Below, piece after piece: positions 1-40,520 of a stretch of DNA of 46,530 nt (the stretch's first letter is position 1; every line of letters starts with the position of its first letter). Source of the DNA: Chitinophagales bacterium. Its GTDB lineage: Bacteria; Bacteroidota; Bacteroidia; Chitinophagales; UBA2359. Where the stretch lies: contig JAEUUX010000236.1 of assembly GCA_016787295.1 (NCBI GenBank), positions 1 through 46,530 of the forward strand, read 5' to 3'. The notes beneath the pieces are model-generated. The model made no database searches and was not told the origin of the DNA. It saw nothing but the letters and a program-made list of their open reading frames with translations. The position numbers and the translations under genes are program-made.

Positions 1-147
1 GTCGTGGACGTAAAAGTTTAGGTCGTGGACGTAAAAGTTTAGGTCGTGGACGTAAAAGTTTAGGTCGTGGACGTAAAAGTTTAGGTCGTGGACGTAAAAG
101 TTTAGGTCGAGAACCTAAAAGTTTAGGTCGAGAACCTAAAAGTTTAG
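1..147. repeat. 21-bp tandem repeat, 7 copies
   Basis: Seven head-to-tail 21-bp units fill the left edge. The first five are identical, each starting GTCGTGGACG and ending AAAAGTTTAG. The last two are identical to each other and differ from the first five at three positions (GTCGAGAACC start). The array begins exactly at base 1, so it probably continues outside the window. One forward frame is open throughout (heptapeptide RGRKSLG, then REPKSLG) and stops at 162-164, so the 3' end of a repetitive coding region cannot be excluded. No start or non-repetitive protein part is visible, so it is called a repeat only. Confidence 0.95.
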
Positions 148-4180: not shown

Positions 4181-6775
4181 ATGAAAGAAAAATATAAATT
4201 TAAAGAAATAAAAACTTACGGTTCCCTAGAAATGTTATTTGAGGGAAACCGTATCTATCGGATTGTACATGACGAATCCGAAACTTGCTACATCAATGCC
4301 GAATTGTCTCTCTACAACCTTTTGTTTCAAGAGAACGAAAGTTGGGAGATGTCGGTTACGTTTCGCGCCGTGCAGCACCAAACAAATCGCGAAATGTGTA
4401 AAATTGATAAACGAGTGTCTGTGTTGCAAGAAGACAATATTGTATATGTGCGCGAAGGTTGGGGAACACCCGAGCCTGGATTTTGGAAAAAAGGAATCTA
4501 TAAGTGGGAGGTGATAGTAGACAGCAAATTGTTGGGTGAGGCATGGTTCTATATTGTGAACAATGGTGTTGTAAATCCTCAAGACAACCCCTATTTCAAT
4601 ATCAAATCTATCAAACTTTTCGAATGTCCTTTTGAAGGCGTACAGTATGGGCAGCGTGAGTATTTGCAGGTGTTTGACCACAAAAAAACGCGTTATATCA
4701 ATGCCGAATTGATTTTGGAAAATAAACTATCCGCCGAACCGCACCTGCCACTTGAGTTGCAATTCAATATTTATAATGATACACGACAGCTCAAAGCACA
4801 TATGGTTTATTTCCAAAACATCTATGATAGCCGCGCCGAAATCGTATTGGATTCGGGCTATGGAACGCGACAACCGGGATTTTGGTATAAAGATAACTAT
4901 ACAGTAGAGGTGGTGTTTATGAATACCATCATTGCCATTGTGCCTTTTAAAGTTGCCGATACCGATGAGCCTTTTTCGGGTGCTTATGATGGATATGAAT
5001 ACCAAACTGAAAACGGTTTTGTTCAACAAAATCCTGTCGAAAAACCCTTTACAGTGGAAGAAGCGCGCAAAGAATTGGACGAGTTGGTCGGTTTGGAAAC
5101 TGTTAAAAAACAAATCAACGAATTAGCTGCCTACATCAAGTTTATTCAGTTGCGGACTAAGCGCGGATTTGTCGAAAAACAAAACTATAATTTACATGCT
5201 ATTTTTACGGGTAATCCCGGAACAGGCAAAACCACAGTAGCTCGCACATTGGGCAATATCTATAAAGCTTTGGGCGTACTAAAGAATGGCAAAGTACACG
5301 AAGTGGGACGCGCCGAATTAGTGGCAGAATACATCGGACAAACGGCTCCAAAGGTGAAAAAAGTGATAGAACAAGCACGTGGCGGCATTTTGTTTATCGA
5401 CGAAGCCTATTCACTCACCAATCGCGGTGATGATGGCAAAGATTTTGGACGCGAAGTCATTGAGGTTGTTCTGAAAGAAATGTCTGACGGCCCTGGCGAT
5501 ATTGCTATTATTTGCGCGGGTTATCCCAAAGAAATGCAACATTTCTTAGATTCTAATCCCGGTTTGGCATCGCGATTTGGACATTTTATCCATTTTCCCG
5601 ATTATACACCCGAAGAATTGATGCAAATTGCCGAATATGCGTGTCACAACCGCAGTGTGACCATCGCTCCCAATGCCTTAGCCACTATCCACAAACAAGT
5701 GGTGGAAAGCTATCGCAACCGCAACCGTATTTTCGGAAATGCCCGCTATATTAATGGCGTTATCGAAGAAGCCAAACGCAACTTGGGTATCCGCATTATG
5801 GCGATGGAAGATCCCGATAATTTAAGCACCGAGCAACTATCAACTATTGCAGTAGAAGATATTAACAAAGTTTTTGAACGCCAAGCCAAAAAGGTAGTGA
5901 AACTACCCATTGCCGAAGACGATTTGCAACAAGCCCTCACCGAACTCAACGGACTGATTGGTTTGAGTAATGTCAAAAACGAAGTTGCCGAAATTGTAAA
6001 ATTGGTGCGTTACTACCACGAAACAGGCAGAGACATACACACAGCATTTTCGCTACATACTGTTTTTACGGGTAATCCTGGCACAGGAAAAACTACAGTG
6101 GCGCGTATCTTGGTGCGAATCTATAAAGCCTTGGGCATATTGGAGCGCGGACATACCGTAGAGGTAGACCGCAAAGATTTGGTGGCTGCCTATATCGGAC
6201 AAACAGCCATGAAAACCAGCGCCAAAATTGACGAAGCTATCGGCGGCGGTTTATTCATCGACGAAGCATATGCTCTGTCGAAAGGAGACAACGACTTTGG
6301 GCGCGAAGCCATTGAAGTATTGCTCAAACGCATGGAAGACGAGCGTGGGCGTTTCATGGCTATTGTAGCAGGCTATACCCAAGAGATGAAACTGTTTATC
6401 GAAACCAATCCAGGGCTGAAATCGCGCTTTGACAAGTACTTTCATTTCAACGATTATACCGAAGACGAACTGATGCAGATTGCCCACGAATTGTATGCCA
6501 CACAAAACTTGAAATTAGAGGATAGTGCCGCCACTTATCTGCGCAACTATGTAGGTAATTTGCTCAAAGCTAAAAACAAATACTTTGGCAATGCCCGTAG
6601 CATCAGAAAAATTGTGGAAGAAAGCACCCGCAAACAGCATTTGCGGCTGGCATCGCTGCCAATTGCGGCACGCACGCCCGAAATGATACAAAGTATTGTG
6701 GTGGACGATTTGCGTTATTTAGAAACCGAAGCTATGGCACAAGACGACCGAACTAAAATAGGTTTTCAAAAATAA
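4181..6775 (+). CDS. Tandem AAA+ ATPase, CbxX/EccA-like, with duplicated N-terminal domain
   Basis: An 864-residue protein built as two duplications. Residues about 10-125 and 150-270 resemble each other: both contain a YINAEL segment and a G(Y/W)GT..PGFW block ending in a beta-strand. Then come two AAA+ modules of the CbxX/CfqX (CbbX, SpoVK, EccA) type. Each has Walker A GNPGTGKTTVAR (Lys350 and Lys637), Walker B LFIDEAY (Asp407-Glu408 and Asp694-Glu695) and a downstream GNAR motif with a sensor-like arginine (FGNARYINGVI, FGNARSIRKIV). CbbX remodels Rubisco, and EccA proteins assist type VII secretion; neither partner gene is nearby, so the client is unknown. Both ATPase sites look intact. 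No signal peptide or membrane segment is seen. The N-terminal repeats are probably the client- or partner-binding part (inference). Confidence 0.85.
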   Translation: MKEKYKFKEIKTYGSLEMLFEGNRIYRIVHDESETCYINAELSLYNLLFQENESWEMSVTFRAVQHQTNREMCKIDKRVSVLQEDNIVYVREGWGTPEPGFWKKGIYKWEVIVDSKLLGEAWFYIVNNGVVNPQDNPYFNIKSIKLFECPFEGVQYGQREYLQVFDHKKTRYINAELILENKLSAEPHLPLELQFNIYNDTRQLKAHMVYFQNIYDSRAEIVLDSGYGTRQPGFWYKDNYTVEVVFMNTIIAIVPFKVADTDEPFSGAYDGYEYQTENGFVQQNPVEKPFTVEEARKELDELVGLETVKKQINELAAYIKFIQLRTKRGFVEKQNYNLHAIFTGNPGTGKTTVARTLGNIYKALGVLKNGKVHEVGRAELVAEYIGQTAPKVKKVIEQARGGILFIDEAYSLTNRGDDGKDFGREVIEVVLKEMSDGPGDIAIICAGYPKEMQHFLDSNPGLASRFGHFIHFPDYTPEELMQIAEYACHNRSVTIAPNALATIHKQVVESYRNRNRIFGNARYINGVIEEAKRNLGIRIMAMEDPDNLSTEQLSTIAVEDINKVFERQAKKVVKLPIAEDDLQQALTELNGLIGLSNVKNEVAEIVKLVRYYHETGRDIHTAFSLHTVFTGNPGTGKTTVARILVRIYKALGILERGHTVEVDRKDLVAAYIGQTAMKTSAKIDEAIGGGLFIDEAYALSKGDNDFGREAIEVLLKRMEDERGRFMAIVAGYTQEMKLFIETNPGLKSRFDKYFHFNDYTEDELMQIAHELYATQNLKLEDSAATYLRNYVGNLLKAKNKYFGNARSIRKIVEESTRKQHLRLASLPIAARTPEMIQSIVVDDLRYLETEAMAQDDRTKIGFQK

Positions 6776-6878
6776 TGTTGTCCTTTTTTTAGACAGCAAA
6801 GTATTTGTAAGCACTATTGTTATTTTTGTTTTGGACAAAATAAAAAACCGACTGCTGGTAGGCAATCGGTTGCATATT

Positions 6879-35219: not shown

Positions 35220-38192
35220 TTATAGCTTTTTTTGGAAGTAGGCTGTCAGTTTTTCGTAAGTTATTCGTTGCATATAGGCTTCCATATAAGCATAGTCAGG
35301 CGCGCCTTCGGGAGTGATGGGAAGCAGCAATTTTTCACGCTGTATTCTAGCATCATTTATTTCACGGTTAAAACTATATTTTTCATTTAACCTCTTTATT
35401 ATGCTCGCAATAAAAAGATAAATGAACGCATTTAAGTCATTATTTTGAAGTTTGGTAACATGATCACTTGCTACAAAGGAGAAAGGTTGATAAAACGTAG
35501 CTCCAATACTACCACTATTTGCAATTGTTAGACAGTTAGAAAAAATTCTAATATTTTCTTTCTTACCTACAAAAGCATCGATACCATTGTTTAGTGCCGA
35601 AGATGAAACATAAGGTATTATTCCTTTTTTATGATCATCTTTTTTAAACCGTTTTCCTCGTTGTATTTCAACAAAAACTTCATTTAGATAAAACTCTCCC
35701 CACTCTTTTTGCTTAAGTGGTATTGCTGCTCCTTTTTCACCTAAAGCTTTAATTTTTAGAGAAACATAGTCAACATATTTTCGTAATAATTTAGCCTCAA
35801 TACGTCTCATATAGGCTTCCATATAAGCATAGTCAGGCGCGCCTTCGGGGGTGATGGGGAGGAGGAGTTTTAGTTTTTCAGTTCCACTTGTAGCATTATT
35901 ACCGTAGGAAAATTTTACAGACTGTATATTAATCAAAGGACAAAGGAACAATAGGATTTTTTTATTACAATTTTCAAATTTTGCTTCTAATGCTTTTACT
36001 CTTGTTCCTACATAATAATCCAATTTTTGAGTAAACGCATAAAAGTTGCCTCTATCCGCTAAACTTATTGTCTTAGTACTGTCGAATAATTTTTGTTTTT
36101 TAATAACATCTGTCCAACCAGCAACTCCATTATTAAATATAGAGTGCGAAATTACTGGGACATTTCCTTTGGTTATTCTTGAAATTATTAAGTCTCCGCC
36201 TGTATATACATAAAACAAATCCCCAATTTCAAACTCTCCCCACTCTTTTTGTTTAAGAGGGATTAGTTCTGGTTCAGGCTTTTTTTTTTCGTCTGCTGTA
36301 TTGCTATCAAATAGATAGTCTCTGCCCTGCATAATCATACTAAATTCAAAAGTAAGATAGTCTGCAATGGCTTTTTCAAAGTCTGCTTCTTTGGGTATTT
36401 CATCATTGAAATAATAAAAAGAATGCAGCCATTCATCAGTTGCTTCGATGGCAGTTTTTACCATAAATTTGCTATCAGCATCTGCTCTATCAAACCAACA
36501 ATCTAAGAGTTTTGCTCTTTGTGATTTGGCTCTTTCAGTTTCTGTAATACCAATGTGTTTTCGGGTTTTAAAACCGTCATCTTCAAAATTGATGAATTTA
36601 CATCGTTTTTTGAAGTCGTGAGCTTTGTGGGCTGTAAAGACTGCTATACATGGATTTACGCCAATGCTGTAAAAAGTTTCTTTATTGAGGGTAATCACTC
36701 CCTCTAAGCTATGTTTTTCTAAGATGCGTTGTTTTATTTTTTTGTCTTCATTGGTTTTGCCTACCATCGTAGATTGAGGCACAATGACAACACACCTTGC
36801 CCCATCAGCAAGGCTGTTGAGCAAGTGTTCAATAAAATGCACCTCCGATAAGTGAACAGTATCTTTACCTTTGGCTTGAGAGTAGGGTGGGTTCATAAAA
36901 CCAACGGTAAAGTTGTTTTTTCGCAAATCGGTAGCTGGTTTAGTTAAAAAATTGGCAGGTACTAAGTTACTTTTTCCATCGTCTCTCAATATCATGTTAG
37001 TGGTGGCAATAGAAAACATATCTTCTCTAATCTCTATACCGTGTAGTTGGTCAGATTTGATATGTTTTTTCTGTTCGGGGTCATTGGTCATTTTTTCCAT
37101 TCGGTGCATAGCTGCAATTAAAAAAGCAGCAGTTCCACAACAAGGATCAAATACCATATCAGTGGGCTTAAGTTCTACCAAATCGCAAAACAATTCGGTG
37201 ATATGGTCAGGTGTAAGTACCACGCCCAACGATTGTCCATCTCCACCACCATAACGCATAAACTCACTATAAAAATTACCCAAAACATCGCCTTTTGTAT
37301 TGGCTTTAATGGAATGTAAAATATGCGTTTCGACAAATTCAGTAAAAAACTTTAAGGGTGTTTTACTTAGCCGCTCATCTATTTGATTAAGTATGGTTCG
37401 GTCTTTGACAAGAATGAATTGATTAAGTACTTTTTCTTTTTTAGTTTCGGGTGTTACCTGCACTTTTGTCATGTAGGTTTCTATACTTCTAAAAATTTTG
37501 TTGCCATCAGTGTTTACATTATCGCCTGTAAGTTGGTTTGAGTTAAAGTTATTTTTGTCAGCAAGAGCTAACAGAATAGCAGATACAACCAAAGGTTTTT
37601 CTTTATCGCCCAATTGTCCATAATTGCGCAATGCTTCGTGCAGTTCAGTGGCTTTTTTGAGCAATTCTTGGGTTTCTAATATCTTGGGTGGTGTTTCTCC
37701 CAAAATTTGTTCACGATAGTACTGCTCTATGTTTGCTGCACTAAAATTTTCAAAATTTTCTACTTTATCCAACAATTTATAGCCTGTGGCATCTACAAAA
37801 AGAGGTTTGATAATGTGATGTTTTTCATCGCCACTACAGCCAAAGGCAAATACTTTTTTAAAATTTGTTTTTGTTAAAATTTCATTGGCATAGTGCAAGG
37901 CACCATTTTCGGCATAGTCTGTAATGGCTTTGGTATCTATGCTTAAAATAGTGTTATCATCATCGGTATATAGTGCTTGTTTTTCTTGTTCGGCTTTATT
38001 TTCAATAACCAAAACAAAATCTTGGACAATAGCAGTAAATTCAGGAAAACCTGATTTTCCTGTTCCTTTTTTTGAGGCTGTTTTTAAGGCTTTTTGAATT
38101 TCTATATTGTCTGAGCCATTAGGCGTATATTTAATACCTACATTCTCAAGAAGGCGGCTTATAAAAATATCGGTTTTTCTTTCGTTTGCCAT
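35220..38192 (-). CDS. Single-chain restriction-modification enzyme (nuclease, N6-adenine methylase, two recognition domains)
   Basis: A 990-residue protein joining all parts of a restriction system. Residues about 48-68 look like a PD-(D/E)xK nuclease site (FPEF, then LVIENKAE with Glu64 and Lys66). The N6-adenine methylase has motif I FDPCCGTAAF (Asp349) and motif IV NPPY (Asn434). The C-terminal third holds two target-recognition domains (about 645-800 and 825-985), each starting PLKQKEWGEF and ending LLPITPEGAPDYAYMEAYM, like the two halves of a type I HsdS. No ATPase/translocase domain is present. Known enzymes with this plan are the type IIB/IIG group (AloI, CjeI), which recognise split sites and cut outside them. 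The nuclease assignment is less sure than the methylase. The gene is alone; no separate R or S subunit is adjacent. Confidence 0.88.
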   Translation of the reverse strand: MANERKTDIFISRLLENVGIKYTPNGSDNIEIQKALKTASKKGTGKSGFPEFTAIVQDFVLVIENKAEQEKQALYTDDDNTILSIDTKAITDYAENGALHYANEILTKTNFKKVFAFGCSGDEKHHIIKPLFVDATGYKLLDKVENFENFSAANIEQYYREQILGETPPKILETQELLKKATELHEALRNYGQLGDKEKPLVVSAILLALADKNNFNSNQLTGDNVNTDGNKIFRSIETYMTKVQVTPETKKEKVLNQFILVKDRTILNQIDERLSKTPLKFFTEFVETHILHSIKANTKGDVLGNFYSEFMRYGGGDGQSLGVVLTPDHITELFCDLVELKPTDMVFDPCCGTAAFLIAAMHRMEKMTNDPEQKKHIKSDQLHGIEIREDMFSIATTNMILRDDGKSNLVPANFLTKPATDLRKNNFTVGFMNPPYSQAKGKDTVHLSEVHFIEHLLNSLADGARCVVIVPQSTMVGKTNEDKKIKQRILEKHSLEGVITLNKETFYSIGVNPCIAVFTAHKAHDFKKRCKFINFEDDGFKTRKHIGITETERAKSQRAKLLDCWFDRADADSKFMVKTAIEATDEWLHSFYYFNDEIPKEADFEKAIADYLTFEFSMIMQGRDYLFDSNTADEKKKPEPELIPLKQKEWGEFEIGDLFYVYTGGDLIISRITKGNVPVISHSIFNNGVAGWTDVIKKQKLFDSTKTISLADRGNFYAFTQKLDYYVGTRVKALEAKFENCNKKILLFLCPLINIQSVKFSYGNNATSGTEKLKLLLPITPEGAPDYAYMEAYMRRIEAKLLRKYVDYVSLKIKALGEKGAAIPLKQKEWGEFYLNEVFVEIQRGKRFKKDDHKKGIIPYVSSSALNNGIDAFVGKKENIRIFSNCLTIANSGSIGATFYQPFSFVASDHVTKLQNNDLNAFIYLFIASIIKRLNEKYSFNREINDARIQREKLLLPITPEGAPDYAYMEAYMQRITYEKLTAYFQKKL
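35271..35321. repeat. TRD-end direct repeat, copy A
   Basis: A 51-bp block encoding the end of the second recognition domain; it matches 35808-35858 with one mismatch (CATATAGGCTTCCATATAAG start). Together with the block at 35691-35717 it frames that domain. Confidence 0.92.
35691..35717. repeat. TRD-start direct repeat, copy A
   Basis: A 27-bp block (AAACTCTCCCCACTCTTTTT start) matching 36231-36257 with one mismatch; it encodes the KQKEWGEF start of the second recognition domain. Confidence 0.9.
35808..35858. repeat. TRD-end direct repeat, copy B
   Basis: Partner of 35271-35321, here at the end of the first recognition domain. It lies 537 bp from copy A. Confidence 0.92.
36231..36257. repeat. 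TRD-start direct repeat, copy B
   Basis: Partner of 35691-35717, at the start of the first recognition domain. It lies 540 bp from copy A, almost the same offset as the end repeats. Confidence 0.9.
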
Positions 38193-38939: not shown

Positions 38940-38982
38940 AACACCCCCGCCCAAAGTTTCCATAGCTTTGAGCGGGGGTGTT
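38940..38982 (-). terminator. Terminator after the 172-residue protein gene
   Basis: AACACCCCCGC (38940-38950) pairs with GCGGGGGTGTT (38972-38982), with inner AAAG/CTTT pairing. On the minus strand it is followed by a short U-rich tail. It starts 18 nt past the stop. Confidence 0.8.
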
Positions 38983-38999: not shown

Positions 39000-39518
39000 T
39001 TATTCCACTACAGGAGGCGTGTCGGTGCTAGTGTTGGTAGTGTTTGTATCATCGGAGCGTTTGCCAAAACGACTGTTATAATTATCAATACCAGCTAAGG
39101 CACGGTCTAAATTGGCGTTGTATTCACGAGCTACTTGTAGGCTTTTTAGAATAATATCTACATGGTGCATCAACTCAACACCAATACCTAACACTGTGTC
39201 ATCGACCATCTCTGCCAATTTTTCGACAAGAACCAAAAATTGCTTTAGGTCTTTGAAATGACTGAACAAAGTATACACCAAAGCAATGTCTATATTGCGC
39301 GGCAGAATATCTTCATATTCATTTGCCACGCGCAATATTTCATCGACATAACCTTCGCGTCCTTCTGAAATACCACGTGACGACCTACGGTCATCATTAC
39401 TCATACTTATCATGCCATTGCCCAACTGCGTAATGGCTGATTTAACGGACTGCCGAGCATCCAACAACTGCGAACTTGATGGCAGGTTCTCAACTACAAT
39501 AGGGGTTTTGTATCCCAT
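39000..39518 (-). CDS. Hypothetical helical protein, 172 residues
   Basis: Not recognised. The product is predicted soluble, without signal peptide or membrane helix. Residues about 15-40 are Ser/Gln-rich, about 45-65 are charged (DDRRSSRGISEGREGYVDE), about 65-150 look like long amphipathic helices (YVDEILRVANEYEDILP, LKQFLVLVEKLAEMVDD, ILKSLQVAREYNANLDRAL), and the last 20 residues are a Thr/Asn/Asp tail. It has a TACATTTG box at 39557-39564 on the minus strand and its own terminator, so it looks like a real, separately expressed gene. A structural or scaffold role is possible but not supported by any motif. Confidence 0.72.
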   Translation of the reverse strand: MGYKTPIVVENLPSSSQLLDARQSVKSAITQLGNGMISMSNDDRRSSRGISEGREGYVDEILRVANEYEDILPRNIDIALVYTLFSHFKDLKQFLVLVEKLAEMVDDTVLGIGVELMHHVDIILKSLQVAREYNANLDRALAGIDNYNSRFGKRSDDTNTTNTSTDTPPVVE

Positions 39519-39556: not shown

Positions 39557-39564
39557 CAAATGTA
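39557..39564 (-). promoter_or_regulatory. -7 element for the 172-residue protein gene
   Basis: TACATTTG on the minus strand, followed by CACC, 38 nt upstream of the ATG. No TTTG at the proper upstream distance, so a partial match. Confidence 0.4.
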
Positions 39565-39820
39565 CAGCAAAAAATAACACGAACTTAAAATAAACAAATA
39601 TTTCTTGTTTTTTTACAAAAAAATGACATAACTACTGTTTTATAAGGTGTATTTTTTAGCTAAGTAACATAATTTTAAAAAAAATTACCATATATTAACA
39701 AAAAAATGGCTTGATATAGATAGATTCAAAATAATGCAAAATGATTGATAGAAAAGTTTATAGATTTTTAAAGCATTTGCAACAAAGCACCAAATTCATA
39801 TAGCAATTTACTAGGTCAAC

Positions 39821-39988
39821 CTACTAATTTGGTAGGTTGACCTACTTTTTTTGTAGGTAATACCTACTAATTTGGTAGGTTGACCTACTTTTTTTGTAGG
39901 TAGTACCTACTAATTTGGTAGGTTGACCTACTTTTTTTGTAGGTAGTACCTACTAATTTGGTAGGTTGACCTACTTTTTTTGTAGGTA
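39821..39988. repeat. 43-bp tandem array of GTAGGT/ACCTAC half-sites, about 4 copies
   Basis: Units at 39821-39863, 39864-39906, 39907-39949 and a shorter last one at 39950-39988. They are identical except for one base in the first (GGTAATAC instead of GGTAGTAC) and the divergent last end. Each unit carries alternating half-sites: GTAGGT-tg-ACCTAC, seven T, GTAGGTA-g-TACCTAC across the unit junction. Every half-site can pair with its neighbour on either side, so several alternative hairpins or cruciforms are possible. The sequence 39811-39820 (CTAGGTCAAC) looks like a decayed further half-site. The array lies in a 744-nt divergent gap, 162 nt left of the next promoter. Confidence 0.95.
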
Positions 39989-40126
39989 AAAACTTTTTTA
40001 TGTTGCCATTATTCTGCTATTATTTGATTTGGGCAGATGATAAAATATTGGAATCAAAGGTAAAGACGATAATTTCATTAGAATGGTTGCTTGTGTTATA
40101 GTAGGATTTTTTTTTTCTTAGAAAAC

Positions 40127-40157
40127 TTGACAATTGGAGAAAAAATGTGTATCTTTG
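40127..40157 (+). promoter_or_regulatory. Bacteroidota-type promoter for the small DUF7660-like gene
   Basis: TTG (40127-40129), 20 nt, TATCTTTG (40150-40157). Full match, 106 nt upstream of the ATG at 40263. Confidence 0.72.
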
Positions 40158-40262: not shown

Positions 40263-40520
40263 ATGAATGATGCGGTTTATAACTTTAAAGTAATAGACAG
40301 ACAAACTTTCATCGAGTTTCTTAACTTATTACATAAAGGCTTTTTGGATAATCCTGAAAGTTGGGAAAACAAAACATTACCTGATTTTTTAGCAGCGCTA
40401 AGTTCTTATACAGAGGATATACAAGCTTATTACGACAATATGAAATTGGGTATAAATGCAGACAAACCCGATTGGTCAACTTTTGCAGACATTTTCAAGG
40501 GAGCAACAATTTACGAATAA
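40263..40520 (+). CDS. Small DUF7660-like protein
   Basis: An 85-residue soluble acidic protein. The pattern FIEFLNLLHKGFLDNPESWEN, TLPDFLAALSSYTEDIQAYY and WSTFADIFKGATIYE matches the short DUF7660-type family as I remember it. Such single-domain proteins are often found near toxin or restriction loci, and an immunity-like role has been suggested for similar small proteins; no toxin gene is adjacent here, so none is claimed. It has its own consensus promoter. The preceding 43-bp array might affect its expression. Confidence 0.78.
   Translation: MNDAVYNFKVIDRQTFIEFLNLLHKGFLDNPESWENKTLPDFLAALSSYTEDIQAYYDNMKLGINADKPDWSTFADIFKGATIYE

Follow-up and report, generated by a model that had tools for sequence, protein, structure and literature searches.

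What does a tandem array of alternating, mutually complementary half-sites do between two small divergent genes of a Chitinophagales bacterium? The array lies in a window of 46,530 nt (the whole stretch of DNA that was analysed, contig JAEUUX010000236.1 of assembly GCA_016787295.1), which belongs to a genome of 5.42 Mb in 296 contigs. Its reality, as claimed by the original prediction, was confirmed by the 43-bp period reported by TRF (97% matches) and by the half-sites counted (Table 1). The palindrome GTAGGTTGACCTAC, with up to two mismatches, has nine matches in the window on both strands against 0.15 expected from shuffles, which rules out that the array arose by chance. The core of the repeat is TAGGT-N2/3-ACCTA, and its 7-nt loops alternate between TAATTTG and TTTTTTT. 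Half-site spacing alternates 21, 22, 21, 22 bp and so on, which makes the 43-bp composite, and TRF also reports a 21-bp sub-period at 39805-39987. The array had therefore been placed correctly, but its limits of 39821-39988 were too narrow, as it spans about 39811-39994. Among the spacers given for it (2 nt, seven T or 1 nt), the uniform run of seven T does not hold, and the last is 1 nt between 7-bp arms or 3 nt between 6-bp arms. None of the listed ORFs of at least 60 aa overlaps the array, and in single-stranded form its folding is much stronger than that of shuffles (z -9.0), which any array of inverted repeats would show. The contig opens with another 21-bp tandem array (window 1-147; GTCGTGGACGTAAAAGTTTAG, 7 copies by TRF).

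The flanking genes are divergent and one of them is unrecognised, as had been stated: gene A has no family match, and the other encodes a DUF7660 protein, a family absent from those common to the neighbours of family genes elsewhere. The repeat just 3' of gene A looks terminator-like by eye, and a scan for such signals did not report it. TACATTTG and TATCTTTG, upstream of gene A and of the DUF7660 gene, respectively, resemble the Bacteroidota -7 promoter box; a promoter-like TTGACA-17-TATCTT overlaps TATCTTTG, and such matches are no commoner here than in shuffles. Beyond gene A lies a type IIG restriction-modification gene. The module copy on contig C196 of the same genome also adjoins a type IIG gene, but such genes are generally missing from the neighbourhoods in other genomes. 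Neighbour proteins in this genome carry Por-secretion tails. A defence-island module was considered and dropped, since despite the two copies beside type IIG genes no defence family matches more than one of 95 neighbour proteins elsewhere. The neighbours are varied overall, with no Pfam family matching more than 9 of the 95.

Table 1. Features around the half-site array in the window, and further arrays of the same kind in the same genome
Feature	Position	Strand	Basis or remark
Inverted half-site array	39811..39994	.	8 GTAGGT + 8 ACCTAC + ninth TAGGT
43-bp composite units, 4.2 copies	39812..39989	.	TRF
Gene A, 172 aa, uncharacterised array-linked protein family (P0001)	39000..39518	-	ORF and family searches
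GC-rich inverted repeat with trailing CTTTT, immediately 3' of gene A	38940..38982	-	terminator-like by eye
TACATTTG upstream of gene A	39557..39564	-	read from sequence
TATCTTTG upstream of DUF7660 gene	40150..40157	+	read from sequence
DUF7660 protein, 85 aa, divergent neighbour	40263..40520	+	family match
Type IIG restriction-modification enzyme, beyond gene A	35220..38192	-	family match
Further array	C281:3563-4019		own genome
Further array, reaching contig end	C93:28563-28882		own genome
Further array	C188:10947-11314		own genome
Further array	C196:226-573		own genome
Array stub	C32:593-650		own genome

Searching this genome and others for the array pattern, much as originally proposed, returned more arrays of the kind in both. 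The window's own genome holds four further clear arrays and one stub (Table 1). The 43-bp design is common to the window array and those on C93 and C281, while the arms on C196 differ (ACCTAGC/GCTAGGT and ACCTAAT/ATTAGGT), the loop arms changing together. The further arrays lie outside larger ORFs, with one 79-aa frame overlapping the C188 array. The C93 array is upstream of a gene for an EAD11 effector-associated domain (L005:7264-8256), beside a repeat-rich 845-aa gene. The genome also encodes seven members of the gene A family, on C262, C196, C86, C238, C20, C84 and C103. A 21-bp array lies 5' of the gene at the first six (about 600 bp away at C84), and the C103 gene has no array within 700 bp. 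The C86 and C238 arrays have a common unit, and neither these two nor the arrays at C20 and C84 are of the AGGT type. The window protein is 45% identical to the protein of the gene beside the C196 array. The C238 gene (L137:6420-6740) lacks its N-terminal part, with a palindrome and the 21-bp array at the break.

In the original prediction the neighbouring gene was a bystander, but it proved decisive: family genes usually lie beside 21/22-bp arrays. With an array defined by a TRF score of at least 50 and a period of 20-22, 40-44, 60-66 or 80-88, one lies beside 95 of the 133 family genes tested outside the window's genome and beside 6 of 7 within it. The first sample gave 20 of 27 genes with an array within 1.5 kb, and a second gave 16 of 19 at the same distance (9/12 in Taibaiella soli, 5/5 in a Tannerella-labelled assembly and 2/2 in Flavobacteriaceae SJ88), T. 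soli and SJ88 having been reached through their AGGT arrays. A class-wide sample, tested after the hypothesis was formed, gave 51 of 64 genes from other genomes within 700 bp, one array (L230/L276b) being counted for two adjacent genes; among close relatives the figure was only 8 of 23. The class search had returned 94 rows, of which 14 were already known, some of them from the window's genome; testing covered 66 of the 80 new rows (64 from other genomes and 2 from the window's), the 14 rows left unfetched being mostly the weakest. The close-relative search returned 34 rows, from which 7 of the window's genome and 1 known were set aside; 23 of the remaining 26 were tested, and 3 had no locus. 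Control stretches on the same contigs contained arrays in 0 of 19 and 1 of 19 cases (1/38 together), and control stretch L284 (G571:C66:5993-8445) has a 21/42-bp array of its own. At the relatives' loci L308/L320 and L301 (G011), some family genes form closely spaced convergent pairs, and between the L308/L320 pair there is a lag-21 signal without a TRF array.

An independent lag test on either flank (z of at least 4) gave 21/27, 18/19 and 52/64 in the three samples, 5/6 in the window's genome, 10/23 in relatives and 3/38 in controls. Because the controls are mostly coding, a cleaner test is to compare different lags within one and the same set of 3' flanks. Across 110 such flanks, excess identity was 0.118 at lag 21, 0.108 at lag 42 and 0.090 at lag 63, with 0.036 at lag 22, 0.030 at lag 43 and raised values at 44, 64 and 66, whereas lags 18, 19, 20, 23 and 24 were at or below 0.005. 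The codon harmonics at lags 18 and 24 are absent from the 3' flanks and present in controls; the arrays are without coding signal. Coding heptad repeats were dropped as an explanation, given the 22- and 43-bp units and the missing codon harmonic. The unit sequence differs at most gene copies, yet the 21/22-bp period stays and diverged units keep phase. Because units recurring every 21-22 bp correspond to two turns of B-DNA, the sites fall on the same face of the helix.

The family proteins are as a rule about 150-175 aa long, acidic (median pI 5.2, n=111; pI 4.9 for the window protein) and predicted to be all-helical, although the model is weak (mean pLDDT 68). No credible family was found in Pfam or NCBIfam for 32 members, a Gag_p15 (Pfam) match of one of the 32 at 2e-4 being taken as chance, nor in PHROGs for six members or PADLOC for two. 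The PDB gave no credible relative by sequence (best E 0.004, to designed and repeat helical proteins) and none for the predicted model by fold at E<=0.001. The family is present in 19 of 395 genomes sampled across the phylum (HMM of 6 sequences, E<=1e-4) and in 39 of 395 sampled across the class (HMM of 32 sequences, E<=1e-8), the window's genome included in both, and reaches 12 gene copies in T. soli against 7 in the window's genome.

The arrays were also approached from the DNA side. With one genome per species, 84,980 species were scanned for pairs of AGGT-type cores 21-22 bp apart, and 30 stretches in 21 genomes, mostly Bacteroidota, were returned. Clear arrays were found in T. soli (several contigs), Flavobacteriia S06.Bin215, SJ88 and Porphyromonas gulae; many of the others are short, and among the 30 genome matches and 7 viral ones are isolated short hits that chance or coding repeats may account for. 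Several of the assemblies are MAGs, and a Tannerella-labelled contig (L090) resembles P. gulae DNA. A stricter three-core pattern matched 2 of 395 phylum genomes, the window's own included, against 0 for the reversed control pattern, and the exact ACCTAC pattern occurred in the window's genome only, among 119 genomes. When loci pulled by the array pattern alone were searched with the family by tblastn, homologs were found beside the arrays at T. soli L071 and L095 and at SJ88 L088. The original prediction had held that an absence of other occurrences near functional loci, together with a fixed copy number and no protein binding, would point to neutral repeat expansion; instead the arrays recur and the gene family travels along. 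At one locus without gene A beside it, an orthologous array could be compared between two genomes that are 94% identical over 4.1 kb, one copy starting at a contig end. None of the 13 differences falls in the 80 half-site positions among 164 (p 1e-4).

Protein and array sequences vary together to some degree. One protein subclade is paired with one half-site: among 116 family loci (the C238 copy and the close-relative sample left out, no GREGY protein being flagged in the latter), at least two copies of AGGTNNACCT occur within 700 bp for 6 of 6 GREGY proteins and for 0 of 110 others, five of the six having been found via the array pattern and the sixth (L202) not, though its genome was. The GREGY arrays are of the AGGT-N2-ACCT type. 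Mantel tests of protein against array similarity, which left out the C238 copy, gave r 0.16 (p 3e-4) over 89 loci, with three double entries left out, and r 0.075 (p 0.023) for pairs below 50% identity. Within single genomes, where L198 was also left out for its runs of N, the correlation was strong for the 8 loci of T. soli (r 0.83, p 6e-4), absent for 5 loci of the Tannerella-labelled assembly (r 0.01, p 0.48) and not significant for 4 loci of the window's genome (r 0.69, p 0.17). Part of this correlation is due to shared descent of paralogs or recent duplicates. A sliding-window search for recognition residues gave a weak signal, and the idea was dropped.

Three readings had been offered for the array: a regulator-binding array, a replication- or partition-like site and a slipped-strand variable locus. 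The data agree best with an array that binds a protein, since arrays recur, half-sites are kept in the orthologous pair and the gene family travels along. The best reading is that it is a same-face cluster of sites for the gene A protein, or for a complex containing it. With a probability of roughly one half, we take the array to be the cis half of a two-part module with that protein, the half-site pairs serving as putative binding sites. Each half-site pair would then be one binding site, and a row of protein copies, perhaps assembled cooperatively on same-face sites, would most likely build a nucleoprotein filament or an anchor at the locus. Family members may each be tuned to their own unit sequence; members so tuned would let a single cell hold several modules, insulated between paralogs, and the protein could also act in trans on additional arrays that carry its half-sites at other places in the genome. 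Against this reading stand the acidity of the proteins, the lack of a match to a DNA-binding family and a weak model without a PDB relative. The arrays without significant dyad symmetry (40 of 79), the weaker association in close relatives, the pattern-reached genomes in which gene A was not detected and the one plasmid homolog, which has no array, count against it too.

The same acidity would suit a different arrangement, in which the array binds another regulator and the product of gene A, as a structural or signalling partner, makes no contact with DNA. At T. soli loci L071, L085, L095 and L096, four AGGT-type arrays have XRE/HTH_3 genes 0.1-3 kb away that are close relatives of one another, so that an XRE-type regulator could be the alternative binder there; L223 has a 42-44% relative of these genes near a family gene. 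Moreover, gene A was not detected (E<=1e-4) in 18 of the 21 genomes reached by the array pattern, several of which rest on single short matches and some of which are MAGs. No XRE relative was found, however, in the loci fetched from the window's genome, and no other protein family recurs widely beside family genes or beside arrays that lack gene A. Among the 116 family loci, GREGY proteins also correspond one to one with AGGT arrays. We consider this arrangement unlikely, if worth keeping in view.

Improbable in our view is that the array is transcribed into a stem-loop repeat RNA bound by the neighbouring protein, as in type III toxin-antitoxin systems. Tandem repeats adjoining the gene of a small protein (about 160-170 aa), the 5' position of the arrays in the window's genome, as for type III antitoxin RNA, and the strong single-strand folding would all agree with it, and the concerted change of the loop arms in the C196 array is the main hint towards RNA. 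The placement of the arrays elsewhere argues otherwise: 82 of 91 bounded arrays lie on the 3' side of the gene, at a median distance of 93 bp from the stop codon and with a median length of 178 bp, and 9 are 5', five of these in the window's genome. Likewise 5' are the five TRF arrays from other genomes of the family to which the window belongs (L316, L309, L317, L323 and L321), so that placement looks lineage-specific. A terminator-like hairpin separates stop codon and array at 44 of 77 3'-array loci against 0.15 expected from base shuffles, and the next gene beyond the array is convergent in 31 cases and on the same strand in 34, with none seen in 4. With terminators before the array and the next gene either way round, most arrays are not 3' UTRs, nor do they belong to a promoter in any fixed way; the idea that they serve as promoter arrays for the following gene was dropped because the orientation of that gene is random.

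Symmetry and mismatches were examined in TRF-bounded arrays, which replaced an earlier palindrome test on longer segments (49/114 at p<0.05). A dyad-symmetric consensus (p<0.05) was found in 39 of 79 arrays against about 4 expected, 12 of the 91 having been left out for fewer than three units. The dyad words vary (AGGT-N2-ACCT, GACT-N2-AGTC, GAAC-N2-GTTC and others). The other 40 are not significantly palindromic; they include the window array (p 0.05), in which the 21/22 alternation blurs a fixed-period fold while the palindromes are plain by eye. In 38 of the 39 significant arrays (one lost to rounding), the sense strand carries 80 G-T against 60 A-C mismatches, a difference that is not significant (p 0.11), and only 25 cells are compensatory, compared with 365 in which pairing is lost. 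There is accordingly little support for the switching between hairpins or cruciforms originally suggested, G-T and A-C being about equal and compensatory changes rare, although the C196 loop arms do change together. Together with a period that stays at two turns of B-DNA, a constraint of no use to an RNA hairpin, and with the terminators, these near-equal mismatches and few compensatory changes favour double-stranded DNA. Nor does any ToxN/CptN/TenpN-type endoribonuclease match the family in Pfam or NCBIfam (32 members) or PADLOC (2 members).

It is quite improbable, too, that gene A and its array are a selfish mobile unit, the arrays being MITE- or REP-like debris of replication or recombination. 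Patchy distribution, several paralogs per genome and dispersed array copies would be expected of one, and the window's genome is rich in other dispersed palindromes. One of about 40 bp, TTCTCCGTAG..GTTTAAAC..CTACGGAGAA, occurs at L039:1-40 and 591-634, L040:558-592, L114 and on other contigs; its 18-bp core, with up to three mismatches, has 46 sites in the genome against 6 for the reversed control pattern, and two copies bracket the C196 array while one abuts the C32 array. Another, AACCCTTTGGGGGTTTTGAACCCCCAAAGGGTT (L136:116-150, L137 near 6745-6780 and L114), adjoins the 21-bp arrays at C86 and C238 and has a variant at C203. A mobile unit is nevertheless not what the flanks suggest: among six arrays of the genome, C93 and C281 have an exact 18-bp boundary in common and C93 and C32 a 147-bp segment at 80%, other pairwise matches are shorter, and no leader, tail or terminal repeat is common to all. 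Searches for tRNA and Rfam matches were empty. The family has no catalytic match, and Y1 tyrosine transposases of the RAYT type gave 0 matches in the window's genome, the control matching in 5 of 14 genomes. One query each found no family match in viral contigs or phage records, and six queries found one distant homolog in 72,556 plasmid records, gammaproteobacterial and with no array beside its gene. The conserved half-sites, finally, argue for use. Neutral expansion of a minisatellite, in which case the link to the gene would merely follow from intergenic regions being rich in repeats, agrees with the near-identical units of some arrays and with the reshuffling of unit types between close genomes, but is very improbable, being already disfavoured by an association that repeats in a new sample, by lags of 21/22 far above the others in the same flanks, and by units that diverge yet keep phase with their half-sites conserved.

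Returning to the reading of gene A and array as a two-part module, the pair is apparently a recurring bacterial module that is undescribed; the open-access literature gave no description of it, subscription journals being mostly outside the scope of that search. It is possible, though we would stop short of an even bet, that this is a new class of module made of small helical proteins, each with a co-diverging tandem array fixed at two helical turns per unit, in mutually insulated pairs and with array copies in trans. Jointly with the module reading, we hold equally tentatively that the class is widespread though patchy in Bacteroidota. If so, an unnamed protein family would be linked to a definite DNA partner open to testing, and a set of intergenic tandem arrays that would otherwise pass for junk or assembly trouble would be explained. 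The paralogous pairs, with fixed helical phase and changing sequence, would form a natural set for studies of recognition and co-evolution. Even if the proposed mechanism is wrong, a gene-array link this strong needs some explanation.

Among known systems, type III toxin-antitoxin loci encode a repeat RNA 5' of the toxin gene and resemble the present loci in having a protein gene beside tandem repeats. They differ in that the repeats here are mostly 3', often beyond a terminator, and phased to B-DNA, and in that the protein is predicted to be all-helical and is without a ToxN-family match (for ToxIN and CptIN, see the available parts of PMC8860590 and PMC4627078). REP/BIME elements with RAYTs likewise consist of clustered short palindromes and, in the available text of PMC3733652, carry an unpaired GTAG or CGTC tag at the palindrome end, unlike the GTAG here, which lies inside a palindrome where GTAGGT pairs fully with ACCTAC. 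BrickBuilt, a minisatellite-MITE of Porphyromonas gingivalis with a 23-nt unit (consensus AGAYCATARTATCCTCTCRTRTG), is also a Bacteroidota, intergenic tandem repeat with a unit of about two helical turns and several loci per genome; its leader and tail carry terminal repeats like those of IS5-family elements, and the available part of PMC4596501 describes no companion protein for it. The units here are 21/22 bp and by eye unrelated to the BrickBuilt consensus, and the arrays of the window's genome are without a common leader or tail with terminal inverted repeats.

Iteron- and parS-type site clusters adjoin the gene of their binding protein. The present module differs from them in being solitary and, as far as seen, chromosomal, in a unit sequence that changes while the 21-bp period stays, in the absence of a widely recurring partner gene from the neighbour tallies, and in that binding here is putative. 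No ParA-type ATPase or replication gene is among the best 25 of the 84 families for the 95 neighbour proteins; since all families matched by at least two neighbours are among those 25, at most one neighbour could belong to any single family of that type. What the two have in common is a small protein gene beside a cluster of helix-phased dyad or direct repeats, and such phased repeats do adjoin the gene here, with gene A as the putative gene of the binder.
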